Shown: positions 50,157-60,795 of the stretch, one piece after another
Numbering within the stretch: position 1 is the stretch's first letter
Layout: each line of letters opens with the position of its first letter
Assembly: GCA_949297145.1 (NCBI GenBank)
Contig: CASFQO010000012.1
Coordinates: forward strand, 1 to 64,000
Reading direction: 5' to 3'
DNA length: 64,000 nt
From: an uncultured Alphaproteobacteria bacterium
Lineage (GTDB): Bacteria; Pseudomonadota; Alphaproteobacteria; RF32; CAG-239
Notes under the pieces: model-generated
Told to the model about the DNA's origin: nothing
The model's input: the letters and a program-made list of their open reading frames with translations, nothing else
Database searches by the model: none
Made by a program: the position numbers and the translations under genes

Positions 50157-50188
50157 GTAGTCCGCTTTAAATGGCGGACTTTTTTATA
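50157..50188 (+). terminator. Terminator after the 74-aa gene
   Basis: AGTCCGC pairs with GCGGACT over a short AT loop, followed by six T. Confidence 0.88.
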
Positions 50189-50302
50189 CTTAATAAATCC
50201 GCCTTACCGCTTCCGTTTTATTTTATCAAAAATCTCTTGCAAATATTGCGCAAATTTATATATTCATTGGTGAGATTTAATATTTATTATAAGGAGATTA
50301 TA

Positions 50303-51340
50303 ATGCCTTTAGTTTCTATGCGTCAGATTTTGGATCACGCTGCCGAAAACAACTATGGTGTTCCGGCTTTTAATGTTAATGATATGGAACAAATTATCGC
50401 TGTTTTGGAAGCAGCTAAAGAAGTTAACGCACCGGTTATTATTCAAACTTCTACAGGTGCTAGAAAATTTGCCGGCGATCCAATGATTCGTCATATGATT
50501 GCTGCCGGAATCGAAATGTTCCCAGAATTGCCAATCTGTTTACACCAAGACCATGGTTCTTCCGTTGATATTTGCCAATCTGCTTTGGTTAACGGTTATT
50601 CTTCCGTTATGATGGATGGTTCTTTGGAAGCTGATGGTAAAACACCTTCTTCTTTTGAATATAATGTTCGCGTTACTAAAGAAGTTGTTGCAAGAGCTCA
50701 CGCTGTTGGCGCTTCGGTTGAAGGTGAACTCGGTGTTATCGGTTCTTTGGAAACAGGTAAAGGTGACAAAGAAGATGGTCACGGTGCTGAAGGCGTTATT
50801 GATAAAAAACGTTTGGTTACAGATCCTGATGAAGCTGCAAAATTTGTTGCTGAAACAAATATTGACGCTTTAGCCGTTGCTGTTGGTACTTCCCACGGTG
50901 CTTATAAATTTACCCGCAAGCCTACCGGCGATATCTTGGCTATTGATGTTATTGAGAAAATTCACGCAAAATTGCCAAATACACACATGGTTATGCATGG
51001 CTCATCTTCTGTTCCACAAGAATTGCAAGATTTAATTAACGCTTATGGCGGTGCTATCCCTCAGACATTCGGTGTACCGGTTGAAGAAATTGTTCGCGGT
51101 ATTAAATCTGGTGTTCGCAAAGTTAATGTTGATACAGACTGCCGTATGGCTATTACTGGTGCTATTAGAAAATTATTTACAGAGAATCCAAAAGAATTTG
51201 ATCCTCGTAAATATTTGAAACCAGCTATTGAAGAAATGAAGAAAGTTTGTATTGACCGTTATGTTGCTTTTGGTGCAGCTGGTCATGCAGATAAAATTAA
51301 GCCTCTTCCGCTATCTGTTATGGCAAAGAAATACGCTTAA
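50303..51340 (+). CDS. fba: Class II fructose-bisphosphate aldolase
   Basis: Zinc aldolase of glycolysis and gluconeogenesis (345 aa), interconverting fructose-1,6-bisphosphate with GAP and DHAP. Zinc and substrate motifs are visible: [32 protein letters not shown] and the HGSSSVP segment. The start at 50303 is set by AAGGAG; the frame is open a further 44 codons upstream through the preceding terminator, which is not coding. A terminator follows. Confidence 0.97.
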
Positions 51341-51496: not shown

Positions 51497-51711
51497 AGGG
51501 CAGGTTGGTGTCTGCCCCGAGGGTTCAAAGCCTCATCACAGGTTGCCAATACCATTGGCGTAAAAACTCCTTCTGGTCTCCCGACTGGAAGGAGGCTAAT
51601 AAGTTTATATAAGGGATAAGCGTTTGTTTATGCCTGATTTAAATCAATATGCCCACTATTCCTGTGAGTAGCTTTGAACTTCCAGTCGCCTTTGCACCAA
51701 GGCGATTTTTT
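51497..51711 (+). ncRNA. Candidate structured RNA with terminator, upstream of the methyltransferase
   Basis: A GC-rich patch in AT-rich DNA, gene-free and packed with helices: 51498-51503/51512-51517; 51519-51522/51531-51534; 51545-51550/51554-51559; a 12-bp stem 51567-51578/51583-51594; 51613-51621/51626-51634; 51656-51661/51666-51671; and a terminator stem 51686-51692/51699-51705 plus T6. Two exact 9-nt long-range pairings also exist: 51523-51531 with 51671-51679, and 51583-51591 with 51679-51687. The second competes with the 12-bp stem and clips the terminator stem. This fits a pseudoknotted RNA or an attenuator for the methyltransferase 15 bases downstream. No known family recognised; promoter weak or unseen. 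Confidence 0.68.
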
Positions 51712-51725
51712 GTTGGGAGCAGGGC

Positions 51726-52742
51726 ATGGGAAATCAAAGCTTACACAAAGCCAAAGATGCCAAGAATGATGAATTTTATACCACTTACGAAGACATCAAA
51801 AAAGAGCTGGCCAATTATGCCAAATACTTCAAAGGCAAAGTGATTTATTGCAACTGCGATGATCATAACGGAATCGGCCTGGGCACGCCGAAATCCAATT
51901 TTTTGAAATATCTGGCGGATAATTTTGAGGCGTTCAAAATCAAAAAAGTTATCGCCACGCACTATGAAAAAGACAAAGACTCGTCCACAATGTATATTTT
52001 AAATAAAGACAATACGGGCAACGGAATCACCTGCTTTGAAGATATTACGGAAATCCCGATGAAAGGAAACGGCGACTTTCGGAGCGAAGAATGTGTCAAA
52101 CTGTTGCAACAGGCGGATATTGTTATTACGAATCCGCCATTTTCTTTATTTCGGGAATATGTGGCACAGCTGATAGAATATAAGAAAAAGTTTCTGATTA
52201 TCGGAAATGATAATTGCCGCACCTATAAGGAAATTTTTCCGTTAATAAAAGAAAATAAATTTTGGTGCGGACTGCATCATGTTAAGCAGTTTTACAAGCC
52301 AGACGGTTCGGTTAAGAACTTTGGCAATGTTAGCTGGTATACAAATTTGGAGAACAGTCGCAGAAATGAAGTAATTAATACCGGCAAGAAATATTACGGA
52401 TTTGAGAAGACGTATCCCAAATACGATAATTATGATGCGATTAACGTTGATAAAGTCAGCGATATCCCGATGGATTATGATGGGGTTATGGGCGTGCCGA
52501 TAACCTTTGTTGATAAATATAACCCCGAGCAATTTGAGATTTTGGGATGTGCCGATTATACCGGAAGGTATGGATCCGATGAACTTGGAGTGAAACGTAT
52601 AGGTGAAAAATGGTTGAAAAAGTATCGAGAACAAGGAGGACGAGGACACTATACCGCTAATATGACAAGTCTTGTCTATTATAGTAATCAGGGAGGAGCT
52701 CAACCTACATTTAAACGCATACTAATTAAAAGGAAAAAATAA
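51726..52742 (+). CDS. EcoRI-type adenine-specific DNA methyltransferase
   Basis: N6-adenine methyltransferase of the EcoRI family (338 aa). The catalytic NPPF motif is at residues 136-139 (DIVITNPPFSLF), and the SAM-binding part VIYCNCDDHNG is at 39-50. It probably protects host DNA from the nuclease encoded next. GGGAG precedes the ATG by six bases, just downstream of a terminator hairpin. The following gene starts two bases after its stop. Recognition site unknown. Arg codons such as CGG and CGA differ from the neighbours, a sign of transfer. Confidence 0.9.
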   Translation: MGNQSLHKAKDAKNDEFYTTYEDIKKELANYAKYFKGKVIYCNCDDHNGIGLGTPKSNFLKYLADNFEAFKIKKVIATHYEKDKDSSTMYILNKDNTGNGITCFEDITEIPMKGNGDFRSEECVKLLQQADIVITNPPFSLFREYVAQLIEYKKKFLIIGNDNCRTYKEIFPLIKENKFWCGLHHVKQFYKPDGSVKNFGNVSWYTNLENSRRNEVINTGKKYYGFEKTYPKYDNYDAINVDKVSDIPMDYDGVMGVPITFVDKYNPEQFEILGCADYTGRYGSDELGVKRIGEKWLKKYREQGGRGHYTANMTSLVYYSNQGGAQPTFKRILIKRKK

Positions 52743-52743
52743 T

Positions 52744-53967
52744 ATGACTATGAAAACATCACAACCGGATATCCGAATCGGGGATTTGGTAAACGGTTAT
52801 CAAGACAGCGGCGAAAAAGGCGTGGTTGCTTATGGCGGAAAACTTAATATCCGACCAGCTTATCAGCGGGCTTTTGTTTATAATCCTGATGACCGAGATA
52901 GGGTTATGTTGTCCGTTTATAACAATATGCCGTTGAATAGTATGTATTGGGCGGTTAATCCGAACGGAACATTTGAAGTTATTGACGGACAGCAACGGCT
53001 TATTTCTATCTGCCAGTTTATAACCAACGATGACGGAAACGGGAATCCGGTCGCCATAGACTTTAACGGGCGGAATACTCAGACTTTTGAAGGCTTATCC
53101 GCGGAAAAACAAAAAGAAATACTGGATTATCGCTTACAGGTTTATGTTTGTGAAGGCTCAGATGACGAAAAACTGGATTGGTTTCACACTATTAATATAG
53201 CCGGAAAACAGATGACTGACCAAGAGTTGCTTAATGCTAACTATACCGGAAAATGGCTGACTTCTGCAAAACATTTTTTCTCCAAACGGCAAAATAACGA
53301 GGCTATAAATATGTCTTATTACGACAATGATGACCGAAAAACCTTGCTAAGCCTTTCGGCGGATAAAGTTTTAGGCGATATGGGTGGTTTGGGTGAAAAA
53401 GCCAACCGCCAATTACTACTTGAATTGGCGCTAAAATGGCGTATTAATGCAGAAACCTCGGAATATCCTCAAATTAAAGATTATATGAGTAAACACCGTT
53501 TTGACAATGATGCAAATGAGCTTATACAATATTTTACAAATACTATTAATTGGGTAAAACATACTTTTAATGTCTATCGTTCTGATATGAAAGGTTTGGA
53601 GTGGGGAATTTTGTATAACAAGTATAAGGAAAAGAATATTAACCCAATAGAAATTGAAAAGGAACTCAAACGTTTATATGACTTGTATGAGGTTGACCCT
53701 GACGGTTTGAAGAAAAAAGGATTTTACGAATATTGCCTCTCTGGTGACAGAACATTAATTTGGCATCGGGCTTTTAGTGACCGACAACAAAAACAAGCTT
53801 ATGACCACCAAAAGGGTAAATGTGCTCGGTGTGGTAGAGCTTTTGCTTTAAAAGAATTAGAAGGACATCATAAAAAGGCTTTTGCCGACGGAGGTGAAAC
53901 AATTATAGAAAATTGTTTAATGCTTTGTAAAAATTGCCACATTGATTATCACGCAGAACATAAATAA
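52744..53967 (+). CDS. DUF262-HNH nuclease-like protein
   Basis: Two-domain protein (407 aa). The N-terminal DUF262 domain has the signature RPAYQR (37-42) and DGQQR (81-85), which in GmrSD and SspE belongs to a nucleotide-hydrolysing DNA-sensing module. The C-terminal HNH domain (from about 357) has CARCGRAF, the GHHKKAFADGG motif and CKNCHIDYH, giving a four-Cys zinc site and HNH catalytic histidines. Probably the restriction arm of a methyltransferase-nuclease pair. It ends in a terminator. Activity is inferred from domains. Confidence 0.85.
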   Translation: MTMKTSQPDIRIGDLVNGYQDSGEKGVVAYGGKLNIRPAYQRAFVYNPDDRDRVMLSVYNNMPLNSMYWAVNPNGTFEVIDGQQRLISICQFITNDDGNGNPVAIDFNGRNTQTFEGLSAEKQKEILDYRLQVYVCEGSDDEKLDWFHTINIAGKQMTDQELLNANYTGKWLTSAKHFFSKRQNNEAINMSYYDNDDRKTLLSLSADKVLGDMGGLGEKANRQLLLELALKWRINAETSEYPQIKDYMSKHRFDNDANELIQYFTNTINWVKHTFNVYRSDMKGLEWGILYNKYKEKNINPIEIEKELKRLYDLYEVDPDGLKKKGFYEYCLSGDRTLIWHRAFSDRQQKQAYDHQKGKCARCGRAFALKELEGHHKKAFADGGETIIENCLMLCKNCHIDYHAEHK

Positions 53968-58575: not shown

Positions 58576-60795
58576 TTACGCTTCGTCTTCTTCAAAACCT
58601 TCCTCTTCTTCTGCGTTAGGATCATAATCTATACCTAATTTTGACAAGATATCTTCATTTTCATCTGTTCTTTGGGCCACAATCCAATCCGGAACCCATG
58701 GTGAATGCGGTAATTTAGACATTGCCAACATTTTTTTATCCAGATAGAAACGAGGAGCATCTGCCATAATCGGTGTATCAATAGAGCCTTGCATCAGGAC
58801 AACTTGTTTCAGCATCGGCAAACTTAACAAGTCATTCGCACTTATGGCTGAAACGCCTTGCAGCTGATAACTTACGTTTTTAGCAAACGGATTGTACTCT
58901 TTGGCCAAACTTCCTTCTTGTCTACTGTATGACGTTGTTTGTACCGTTTTGTTACCAATCATTTTGGAGAAACGTTGAGCTGTCTGTTCATTGTTTTGGG
59001 ACAAAATCACCTTGCATGCCGTTGTTGAAATCACAGTTTCCAGGTCATCCTTTCCATATTTACCGGAAATTTGGCCTAAGTCTTGTCCAATCAGCAAATA
59101 AGATACTTTTTGACCACGTCCTACCGCAGGACCGTCAATAACCGCTTTCAACTTCGGCATTTGCGGAAACTCGTCGAGTACGAACAAAGCAGGAAATGGC
59201 CCCATCTTGCCATCGGTCGGGTGTACCGAATTCGGCGGATTGGAAATTAAGTATGCACTAATTAAATCCACGAATGTTGCACTAATCGGGTTTAAGGCTT
59301 GCGCATCGGTTTGGTTAACAGACAGATATACGGAAATAGGTTTCCACTCTCCGGTTACAGGGTCTTTCATTCCGCGCAAATCCTTAAATTGAATATCGGA
59401 AAAACTTGTTCTCGCTACCACCGCAGAGTTCTTAAAGATACCGATACCCGTTAAACCTGTTGACATAACTGAGCCACGCTCTTTATCCGGCATCGCGCTC
59501 AAGGCACTCAATTCTGTTACGCAACGACGTGAGTAGCCATAGTTATTCGCTTCTTCCACCGCAGCATCCAGCAAATCACGCATTGGGTCTGCCATTGCGG
59601 CCATTTGGTCACCTTCTTCCAAACGGCGTTTAATCTCGTTTGCTTGCTCAATTTGTGAGGAGGTAATCCATTCCAAAATCATCGCCATACATGGTTCATG
59701 ATTTACCCATTTATCTGGTAATAAATTCCATGTTCCTATCGGCAAATAATTTTCTATAGTCAAATTACCATTTTGCAAATCTTGGATTGCACGTGCCGCA
59801 TTTGCTCGCAAACCACCAATACTCATGTCATCATAGTATTGCATTAGCTCGGCTTTGTCTTCTGCAGTCATGGAGCCTTCATATATTTTTTGAATAAAGC
59901 GCTCATTGGCCAGGGCTCGTTCGCATTTTGATGAGATAAAGTGAATAAATCCACACAATGCACTACGTCCGGTTTTTGACCAGTGAGGGTCTGCACCACC
60001 TTTTGGATCTTCCACTAACGTATTGCACATTGAGTCAACATACAAATCTCTATCCGGACCAGGTTTTGGCAATGCTCCCGGTGACAGAGGGTTCCAACTC
60101 GGATAGTATTCGCCTGTTGCCGGATTATCTTCTTTACCCCAGTTAATAACGAATACCGGACCTACTTTGCTTCTTGCTCCCGTTGTTTGGTAGCACAACT
60201 CAGGCTTCGGGTCGTTCACGATAATACTCAGGCCTTCCGAATTAAATATTGTTGGAATTACGACTCCGGCCGTTTTACCGGTTCCCGGAGGTGCGCAGCA
60301 CAAAGTTGACAAAGTTTCTTTCAATTTCAGCATTTTACCTTGGAATTTTCCGACTACCATACAAAAGCCGTCAAATCCTAGCAAAGGCATATTTTCAATA
60401 TCTCTTAATGTTGCAATATGCGCAGAACCATGGATGTTTGATTGGAATTTATATGGACACTTTATTCCGCCAACCAATAAAATGATTGGAAAAGATAAAA
60501 ATGGCAGAATCGGCGGCCATAAACTTATTTTAAACTCACCACTGTAATGGTATATTTTTCTAAACCATCTCATATACCATTCCCATAAGTATCCGAAGTC
60601 CCCTAAGGATTTTTTCAAGAATATTCCCGCAACTTCCACGCTTTTTTTAGATATGCCATTTTGCATAAAAAAAGCAATTATTGGCGATAAATAAAGAAAT
60701 GCAATAGTTACTGCTACTGATATGGCAAATGTTATTGTCATCCAGCGCACCGCGTTATCATATTCTTCCCATTCTTTTCCTCTTTCTTTTGCCAT
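58576..60795 (-). CDS. Type IV secretion coupling protein (VirD4/TraG/DotL-like)
   Basis: Inner-membrane hexameric ATPase (739 aa) that recruits substrates to a type IV secretion apparatus. Two N-terminal membrane helices (about 18-44 and 91-111), Walker A APPGTGKT (168-175), a Walker B region FVLDEFPQM (near 535) and the TraG-type GRGQKVSYLLIGQDL segment are present. The C-terminus is very acidic (EEEEGFEEDEA), as in DotL-type proteins that bind adaptors. AGAGG precedes the ATG. Neighbours are membrane and coiled-coil proteins. A conjugative rather than effector role cannot be excluded. Confidence 0.9.
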   Translation of the reverse strand: MAKERGKEWEEYDNAVRWMTITFAISVAVTIAFLYLSPIIAFFMQNGISKKSVEVAGIFLKKSLGDFGYLWEWYMRWFRKIYHYSGEFKISLWPPILPFLSFPIILLVGGIKCPYKFQSNIHGSAHIATLRDIENMPLLGFDGFCMVVGKFQGKMLKLKETLSTLCCAPPGTGKTAGVVIPTIFNSEGLSIIVNDPKPELCYQTTGARSKVGPVFVINWGKEDNPATGEYYPSWNPLSPGALPKPGPDRDLYVDSMCNTLVEDPKGGADPHWSKTGRSALCGFIHFISSKCERALANERFIQKIYEGSMTAEDKAELMQYYDDMSIGGLRANAARAIQDLQNGNLTIENYLPIGTWNLLPDKWVNHEPCMAMILEWITSSQIEQANEIKRRLEEGDQMAAMADPMRDLLDAAVEEANNYGYSRRCVTELSALSAMPDKERGSVMSTGLTGIGIFKNSAVVARTSFSDIQFKDLRGMKDPVTGEWKPISVYLSVNQTDAQALNPISATFVDLISAYLISNPPNSVHPTDGKMGPFPALFVLDEFPQMPKLKAVIDGPAVGRGQKVSYLLIGQDLGQISGKYGKDDLETVISTTACKVILSQNNEQTAQRFSKMIGNKTVQTTSYSRQEGSLAKEYNPFAKNVSYQLQGVSAISANDLLSLPMLKQVVLMQGSIDTPIMADAPRFYLDKKMLAMSKLPHSPWVPDWIVAQRTDENEDILSKLGIDYDPNAEEEEGFEEDEA

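Follow-up and report, generated by a model that had tools for sequence, protein, structure and literature searches.

The window analysed here is a 64,000-nucleotide stretch of DNA from an uncultured alphaproteobacterium, and its forward strand carries a restriction-modification (R-M) operon of a methyltransferase and a nuclease gene (Table 1). An aldolase gene (50171-51340, named by eye) flanks the element at 51497-51711 on the side opposite to this operon. Elsewhere in the window, at 58576-60795 on the minus strand, an ORF resembles a VirD4/TraG-type coupling protein by eye. On the plus strand, the element folds to a predicted minimum free energy (MFE) of -86.9 kcal/mol versus -57.3 kcal/mol (sd 4.3) in shuffles, with a z of -6.9 and 0/200 shuffles as good; the minus strand folds more weakly, with a z of -5.3.

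The initial annotation described a 17-base segment, 51671-51687, as complementary to two upstream stretches, and this proved exact to the base. The 9-mer GTTCAAAGC at 51523-51531 is the exact reverse complement of 51671-51679, and GACTGGAAG at 51583-51591 is that of 51679-51687, C51679 being common to both and giving the 17-base segment. We found a third long-range helix, P3, which is absent from that description and is formed by TCACAGG (51536-51542) and CCTGTGA (51661-51667). The seven local helices of the initial annotation were confirmed by count (P1, P2, P4, P5, P6, H7, and the terminator), several of them mutually incompatible, and the T-run ends, as it had stated, at 51711, ahead of the methyltransferase ATG at 51726. 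The P6 arm contains a conserved, unpaired, A-rich internal loop (AAATAA/CAATA). The promoter match in the window is poor, with five mismatches; the Shine-Dalgarno (SD) sequence is not GGAAGTT, and its match to the hub strand P8b is limited to 6 bp including one G-U.

Table 1. Coordinates of the leader element, its parts, and the downstream genes in the window
Feature	Position	Strand	Evidence
P1 hairpin, likely RNA 5' end	51499..51517 (51499-51504 : 51512-51517)	+	6/6 pairs with both-side changes; 86.7% of cells paired, n=29
P2 hairpin GAGG/CCTC; loop is the putative upstream target box, a1-like	51519..51534	+	100% paired, n=29; 3/4 pairs invariant
PK1 5' strand (P2 loop), pairing with 51672-51677	51525..51530; exact match 51523-51531	+	100% paired; 4/6 both-side changes; top covarying pairs
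P3 5' strand (P3a) TCACAGG, putative second upstream target box, b1-like	51536..51542	+	Exact complement of 51661-51667; locus-specific in relatives
P4 hairpin	51545..51559 (51545-51550 : 51554-51559)	+	MFE fold; poorly aligned region, 13-24 of 26-29 paired per column pair
P5 hairpin, predicted to sequester P8a	51567..51594 (5' arm 51567-51578)	+	93.6% of cells paired, n=29; 4/12 both-side changes; middle open in 5-6/29
P8a, closing stem (5' strand) of the cloverleaf antisense core	51583..51591	+	Complement of 51679-51687; 9/9 pairs paired in 29/29; 7 invariant, 2 with both-side changes
P6 arm	51592..51654 (base 51592-51596 : 51651-51654)	+	97.8% paired; 4/5 both-side changes
H7 hairpin CTAT/GTAG; loop 51661-51667 is the putative antisense box b'	51656..51671	+	100% paired; 1 both-side pair; locus-specific pairing with P3a
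Linker H7-P8b, putative antisense box a'	51672..51678	+	PK1 3' strand
P8b hub strand CTTCCAGTC; partners P8a, terminator 3' arm (last 4 nt) and, weakly, the Shine-Dalgarno region	51679..51687	+	
Intrinsic terminator, then T	51684..51711 (51684-51692 : 51699-51707)	+	-11.3 kcal/mol; -5.9 with last five P8b bases blocked
TGGGAG, Shine-Dalgarno-like	51714..51719	+	6 bp (one G-U) with the hub strand
EcoRI-type adenine methyltransferase	51726..52742	+	PF13651, E 6.2e-104; PADLOC MTase_II
GmrSD_N-HNH nuclease, Type II restriction enzyme model	52744..53967	+	PF03235 + PF01844; PADLOC REase_II, E 1.5e-91

Competing folds and the terminator in related elements

A plain DNA search of 175 related genomes gave matches in 48, mostly partial and often several per genome, and the loci read share one recurrent architecture that is followed by a start codon. 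We aligned 29 of 30 elements, leaving out L017. The pairing of the P2 loop with the 3' linker stands at the top of the covariation ranking, and pairs of P1, P5, P6, P8, and the terminator were also picked up; the ranking is noisy because of common descent, only 28 of the 75 highest-scoring column pairs being complementary. In the 29 relatives, the proposed structure (P1, P2, PK1, P8, P6, and H7) pairs in 97.3% of the cells versus 86.1% in column shuffles, 17 of its 34 pairs are changed on both sides, and its covariation score is 0.387, where column shuffles give 0.170 and slid versions no more than 0.090. On four of the five measures no shuffle out of 500 reaches the proposed structure, and on the fifth 2/500 do.

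The both-side changes are found in 6/6 pairs of P1, 4/6 of PK1, 4/5 of P6, 2/9 of P8, 1/4 of H7, and none of P2, with P8, H7, and P2 mostly invariant in the 29 relatives. Since most P8 pairs are invariant, the support for this helix comes from conservation more than from covariation. Of the two 9-nt pairings proposed in the initial annotation, the P2-loop pairing thereby has strong covariation, and that of 51583-51591 is always paired with few both-side changes. The alternative state, consisting of P5 and the terminator, is 93.0% paired in the same relatives, with both-side changes in 17/31 pairs and a covariation score of 0.469 versus 0.222; the two ends of P5 are almost always paired and its middle is open in 5-6/29. 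Because covariation is present in both states, both competing folds look selected, P8a pairing with P5a or P8b and P8b with P8a or the terminator. The earlier suggestion of a pseudoknotted functional RNA with competing pairings before a terminator is supported by this covariation, whose absence the initial annotation had named as refuting. As judged from the aligned relatives, the element is an evolutionarily conserved folded RNA leader, similar to small RNAs that phages use to silence genes of their own, and we hold it to be functional with near certainty.

The terminator was analyzed in 160 elements from the gut lineage and relatives, obtained from 163 parsed ones (122 unique plus 41) by demanding P8 pairing and distinct sequence; the set includes one antisense-strand artefact (L187:245-412:-) and one weak match (L082). 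An intrinsic terminator starts in or just after P8b in 133/160 elements, with an overlap of 2-5 nt in 128, versus 1-6/160 after shuffling; among 30 loci of the Rfam family sRNA-Xcc1 (RF02221), discussed below, none has a terminator overlapping P8b. With the last five bases of P8b blocked, the median hairpin energy moves from -10.7 to -4.5 kcal/mol; among the 147 elements with a T-run, 131 lose 3 kcal/mol or more, the P8 duplex being worth -13.4. The 5' half of P8b, extended by two bases of the linker, forms a further strand with a tendency to match the SD sequence. The SD sequence GGAAGTT precedes 59/147 linked genes (22/97 outside G034 and G090, the two genomes with most copies) versus 4/175 other ORFs of the same loci, and the own strand fits the SD better than foreign strands do (0/10000 permutations, with and without G034 and G090). 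In the 20 loci with another strand, the own strand is better than the common one in 13 and worse in 6, with mean scores of 12.1 and 12.3, respectively. With matches to P8a, the terminator, and the SD, the hub strand P8b therefore has three possible partners. Hints of a 5' end made by RNase P, as in C4, are slight: a U at position -1 occurs in 109/158 elements and RCC after P8b in 108/160, the latter confounded by the terminator; the RF02221 loci give 21/30 and 10/30.

Distribution and downstream genes

We searched wider genome sets with a covariance model, R1, which has 172 positions, does not include P1, and gives rough E-values. R1 matches 77/92 genomes of the family, 128/154 of the order, and 24/385 of the class, and 2/299 genomes of a phylum sample, both alphaproteobacterial and one of them the own genome. 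Nearly all relatives are draft genomes. Seven genomes searched deeper contain 98 (G034), at least 150 (G090), 14, 13, 11, 10, and 9 copies; 24 and 28 copies were read in G034 and G090. Both of these genomes are about 1.6 Mb in size (loci L067, L068, L072, L073, L078, L080, L085, L086, and L092-L131). An exact 19-mer search returned 39 stretches, 38 of them titled Alphaproteobacteria or other proteobacteria, many with isolate names from ruminants. The record titled Mollicutes bacterium Phil14 (L149, MSHB01000021.1) also carries the 19-mer, and is probably a mislabelled alphaproteobacterial bin. A blastn search of the window element against plasmid and phage collections gave no match.

The own genome has two R1 copies, the second of which (G000:C12:133763-133928, L033) precedes an outer-membrane beta-barrel gene. 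A third copy (G000:C11:49316-49398, L246:1117-1199) is RF02221-like with 35.4 bits and stands alone with its own terminator, flanked by an N6_N4_Mtase gene and, about 180 nt away, an ORF resembling ftsH by eye.

The element has a fixed orientation to the gene: in 81/91 elements with long flanks, an ORF of at least 100 aa on the same strand begins no more than 60 nt away, versus 0/91 on the divergent side. The looser count, an ORF of at least 50 aa on the same strand within 200 nt in 117/122 distinct elements, is weak because such an ORF is also present in 53/91 divergent flanks. The five exceptions to it include three first copies of tandem pairs (L064, L079, and L088), and tandem copies also occur in G044; in L064, L079, and L088 the copies are only about 100 nt apart and the first is without its own ORF. 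Promoter-like sites with at most two mismatches place a -10 element 20-29 nt upstream of the element start in 38/39 cases, versus 3/21 in shuffled sequences; on this clustering, the RNA therefore probably starts at P1 and fills the entire 5' leader. These features bear on a reading in which the RNA is a trans-acting sRNA that merely adjoins genes, as published for sRNA-Xcc1. The stand-alone copy in the own genome would suit it, as would sRNA-Xcc1 itself, an 88-nt RNA with mapped ends (PMC2996969), but the one-sided ORF positions, the promoter clustered at the RNA 5' end, and an SD tuned to the RNA make it highly improbable.

The genes served are of many kinds. Paralogous pilin-like genes lie downstream in 24/24 sampled copies of G034, and one other small secreted-protein family in 26/28 of G090. 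Pfam searches of 95 downstream proteins from the wider set, with overlap among the families and no listed match for many of the proteins, gave outer-membrane beta-barrels (14), Opacity (10), Surface_Ag_2 (7), and PilS (3), with glycosyltransferases and DNA methylases in a few. With G034 and G090 set aside, a secretion-like or pilin-like N terminus, assigned by a rough rule, is present in 53/101 linked proteins, versus 25/164 other ORFs of the same loci. The most window-like subgroup, L002-L006 (85-91% identical), has a DNA methyltransferase gene downstream in 5/5; L002, L003, L005, and L006 precede the same EcoRI-type enzyme (72-91% amino-acid identity), and L004 precedes an N6_Mtase gene. A leader private to R-M systems was considered and dropped, as relatives have other gene kinds downstream; it holds only for the subgroup L002-L006.

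Compared with G003 (L257), identity per 100-base bin is 98-100% in the DNA upstream of the element, falls to 38-86% across the RNA and the methyltransferase gene, and rises again to 83-100% in the latter half of the nuclease gene. With near-identical flanks around a divergent leader and methyltransferase gene, the two may therefore have been exchanged as a block between genomes (window 51500-53000). Such apparent cassette exchange, together with the high copy number and the tandem copies of G044, could indicate a mobile or recombination element acting at the DNA level, such as an attC-like site or a MITE. We find this barely credible in view of the compensatory changes at distant strands, the fixed orientation to the gene, and the placement of promoter and terminator; the integron attC recombination site was dropped on the same grounds.

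Locus-private boxes and probable kinship to sRNA-Xcc1

The 5' boxes of PK1 and P3 pair privately, that is, with the antisense boxes of their own locus. In a random 80 of the 160 elements, 0/20000 permutations reached the own pairing for each box, in tests that keep base composition and not phylogeny. The P2-loop pairing with the own partner is best or tied in 23/24 sampled loci of G034 and the H7 pairing in 17/24, and in G090 each is best or tied in 20/28. The numbers of distinct linkers are 15 in G034 and 18 in G090, and some loci therefore share keys. At the orthologous site beside the aldolase gene (L002, the window, versus L003 of G011), 10/16 PK1 positions differ and 0/15 P3 positions, versus 4/139 positions outside the boxes and the P6 tip. 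L004, L005, and L006 have identical PK1 boxes while the rest differs, which accounts for 3/10 pairs of L002-L006. Replacement of the box pair as a block would fit antisense specificity better than a merely structural helix.

In C4 RNA, the antisense boxes also act near the ribosome-binding site (RBS): according to a passage of PMC5320573, RNase P cuts at the closing stem's 5' end, and b' blocks the RBS. Copies of the boxes at the RBS are weak in the gut lineage, with 105/20000 permutations for the linker and 1168/20000 for H7. In 98 terminator-bearing elements the values are 1 and 251 of 10000 with small gains, and in 27 elements without a detected terminator there is no gain. The copy in the window is not significant, the linker having an 8-nt match at codons 3-5, as do 4.4% of foreign linkers.

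Rfam searches of the window at gathering level returned two tRNAs only, and no clear match of the element to a housekeeping RNA. At E values up to 5, seven matches surround the element, all far below their cut-offs and leaving no Rfam class matched, and the element has no match to RF02221 or to C4 (RF01695) even at E 5. The initial annotation had not recognised the family, and this holds for the element itself, but a nearest relative can be named, Rfam sRNA-Xcc1, with the C4 antisense RNA of phage P1 closest in layout. Divergent members from other alphaproteobacterial families match RF02221 with E values of 1.4e-5 (L200), 4e-5 (L203), 0.004, and 0.008, scoring 33.9-45.4 bits, below its gathering cut-off of 53 bits. 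In the reverse direction, R1 finds 3/31 RF02221-type loci, L216 (7.5e-5), L221 (3.5e-4), and L246 (0.005), with two further matches elsewhere (0.02 and 0.49), and in G167 both models match the same two loci on the same strand and at the same place. The RF02221 consensus structure, P8{P6,H7}, shares the topology of a closing stem, an arm with an internal loop, a second hairpin, and a linker. The proposed link to RF02221 thus consists of intermediates below the curated cut-off together with identical anatomy. No covariance model joined the gut-lineage family or sRNA-Xcc1 to C4, for which the Rfam consensus (RF01695) places two hairpins and a linker within a closing stem.

RF02221 matches 51/299 genomes of the phylum sample, 35 of them above the cut-off. 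Upstream of the core, the 31 RF02221-type loci (including L246) have a 5' domain made of a hairpin whose loop pairs with the linker and then a box that pairs with the H7 loop, although it is not clearly visible in a few, such as L222 and L238. As a group these pairings are locus-private (0/20000 permutations each), and the own loop pairing lies above the cross median in 29/31. The Rfam sRNA-Xcc1 model omits this 5' domain, whose own pairing beats 20000/20000 permutations over the 31 loci. In 30 RF02221 loci, the boxes also pair near the RBS of the next gene (2/20000 permutations for the linker and 0/20000 for H7). Among 23 proteins downstream of such loci are Bro-N (4), Rha (3), P22_AR_N (1), and KilA-N (1), that is, up to 9/23 of antirepressor or regulator types. 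In Escherichia phage Rac-SA53, 38 nt separate the end of the RF02221 match from the start of the annotated ant gene, and in Vibrio phage VPBES sRNA-Xcc1 is annotated just before a CDS. By eye, in many of L216-L245 the 5' boxes are separated from the core by a terminator-like hairpin with a T-run and GTGCC, a region that recalls the isrK-matching part of phage P1. The annotation order in phage P1 is a1, b1, c4 RNA, a2, b2, icd, and ant1. From the 5' boxes, the RBS copies, and this layout, sRNA-Xcc1 therefore looks built to work like C4. Passages of PMC12444791 describe for sRNA-Xcc1 an association with mobile elements, which we count among its likenesses to the leader: an integron cassette, and the RNA upstream of symE.

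A different reading is that of a cis-only riboswitch of a new class, in which the P6 internal loop or the pseudoknot binds a small molecule and decides between P5 with the terminator and P8, and the private boxes are drifting structural helices. It would account for the attenuator topology (1:2, 2:3, and 3:4), the conserved A-rich internal loop, and the many copies before genes often of one kind. We consider it unlikely, since PK1 boxes are replaceable as a block at orthologous sites (a purely structural helix needs no such replacement, but three of the ten pairs are identical), in the RF02221 relatives the boxes recur at the RBS, and the genes served have no obvious metabolite in common. The copy numbers of G034 and G090 and the conserved core sequence would instead suit one trans regulator, a shared RNA-binding or antitermination protein that recognises the core and turns on a regulon of surface-protein and R-M genes. 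This would leave the private boxes unexplained, and we rate it as more doubtful still than the riboswitch.

Proposed mechanism and comparison with known systems

We regard it as probable that the methyltransferase-nuclease operon has 51497-51711 as its leader RNA, a lineage-specific antisense leader of C4/sRNA-Xcc1 type turned into an attenuator with private keys. That it is of the C4/sRNA-Xcc1 kind in its working principle we hold with greater confidence; the main lines of the attenuator scheme we judge somewhat less secure than the reading as a whole. The mostly invariant P8, the sometimes identical PK1 boxes, the lack of an RF02221 or RF01695 match in the window, its poor promoter match and deviating SD, and the weak RBS copies count against the overall reading. 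The attenuation switch suggested in the initial annotation agrees with the anatomy of the terminator and P8b, but a meter of the methyltransferase-nuclease cassette alone does not agree with a leader that is widespread and serves many gene kinds. Its other suggestion, an RNA partner of the encoded proteins, gains no support from the results.

Sequence comparison gives the architecture, the competing helices, the mostly private boxes, the overlap with the terminator, and the placement ahead of the gene. In the proposed scheme, whose folding order and switch direction we infer, two putative target boxes (the P2 loop and P3a) are followed by the cloverleaf core with its closing stem P8 and the arms P6 and H7, and the H7 loop and the linker complement the target boxes, mostly by locus-private sequences. 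In the OFF state, P5 would fold first and hold P8a away from P8b, so that the terminator could form. In the ON state, free boxes would pair with H7 and the linker (P3 and PK1), the core would close, and P8 would take the base of the terminator stem, letting transcription enter the methyltransferase gene. Termination together with a C4-style cleavage at the 5' end of P8 could release the core RNA. The released core might then pair in trans with the boxes of the following leader during its synthesis and shift it towards the OFF state, giving a self-limiting and sequence-private feedback.

A broader proposal is more tentative, and we give it somewhat less than an even chance: gut Alphaproteobacteria would have co-opted a phage immunity RNA of the C4/sRNA-Xcc1 kind as a gene switch that can be addressed locus by locus, changed it from translational antisense repression to a transcription attenuator, and copied it before surface-protein arrays. 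Private keys changeable as a block could keep loci independent or let recent duplicates silence each other, and might be a basis for surface variation and R-M timing. The comparison makes it testable how one genome runs about 100 alike RNA switches with little cross-talk, little because in most sampled loci the own boxes give the best pairing. Should it hold in the laboratory, the leaders would form a naturally occurring, largely orthogonal collection of RNA regulators, and they could be how uncultured gut bacteria vary their surface proteins.

By anatomy, the analysis links sRNA-Xcc1 and C4, the latter together with its a1/b1 leader, to an unnamed family of leaders from gut Alphaproteobacteria; the three stand apart in Rfam and in the literature searched, and in the passages seen there, family names that co-occur in papers are named without being joined. 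The leader shares with RF02221 the closing stem, two inner hairpins, and the linker, as well as the 5' domain with the loop and P3 boxes that true RF02221 loci have as a group. In contrast to RF02221, the gut lineage has the terminator on P8b (133/160 versus 0/30) and little RBS copy of the boxes, and it serves surface-protein, R-M, and other genes instead of the antirepressor-type genes that follow up to 9/23 RF02221 loci. The likeness to IsrK / STnc1160 of Salmonella Gifsy-1 is by layout only: passages of PMC4825925 describe a terminator-bearing upstream RNA, an antirepressor operon reached by readthrough, and a complementary RNA within the same transcript, but the terminator there follows the upstream RNA and not the antisense RNA.

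The order of promoter, two target boxes, cloverleaf antisense RNA, and gene is shared with C4 of phages P1 and P7 (RF01695, clan CL00128) and its c4-a1b1 leader (RF03163). In both, the hairpin-2 loop and the linker would be the antisense boxes b' and a', and the upstream a1/b1 complements are present, exact in the window. Compared with C4, the window has no sequence-model match, the closing stem of C4 is longer, and the gene in the window is an R-M methyltransferase, whereas C4 controls an antirepressor; the blocking of the RBS via a2/b2 in C4 would here be largely replaced by the terminator and the hub strand. Attenuators of the trp type and of riboswitches have mutually exclusive strands, 1:2, 2:3, and 3:4, before an intrinsic terminator, and the leader has the same arrangement. 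Unlike in those attenuators, in which a leader peptide or an aptamer would be expected and neither was identified here, the decision elements appear to be private base-pairing boxes.
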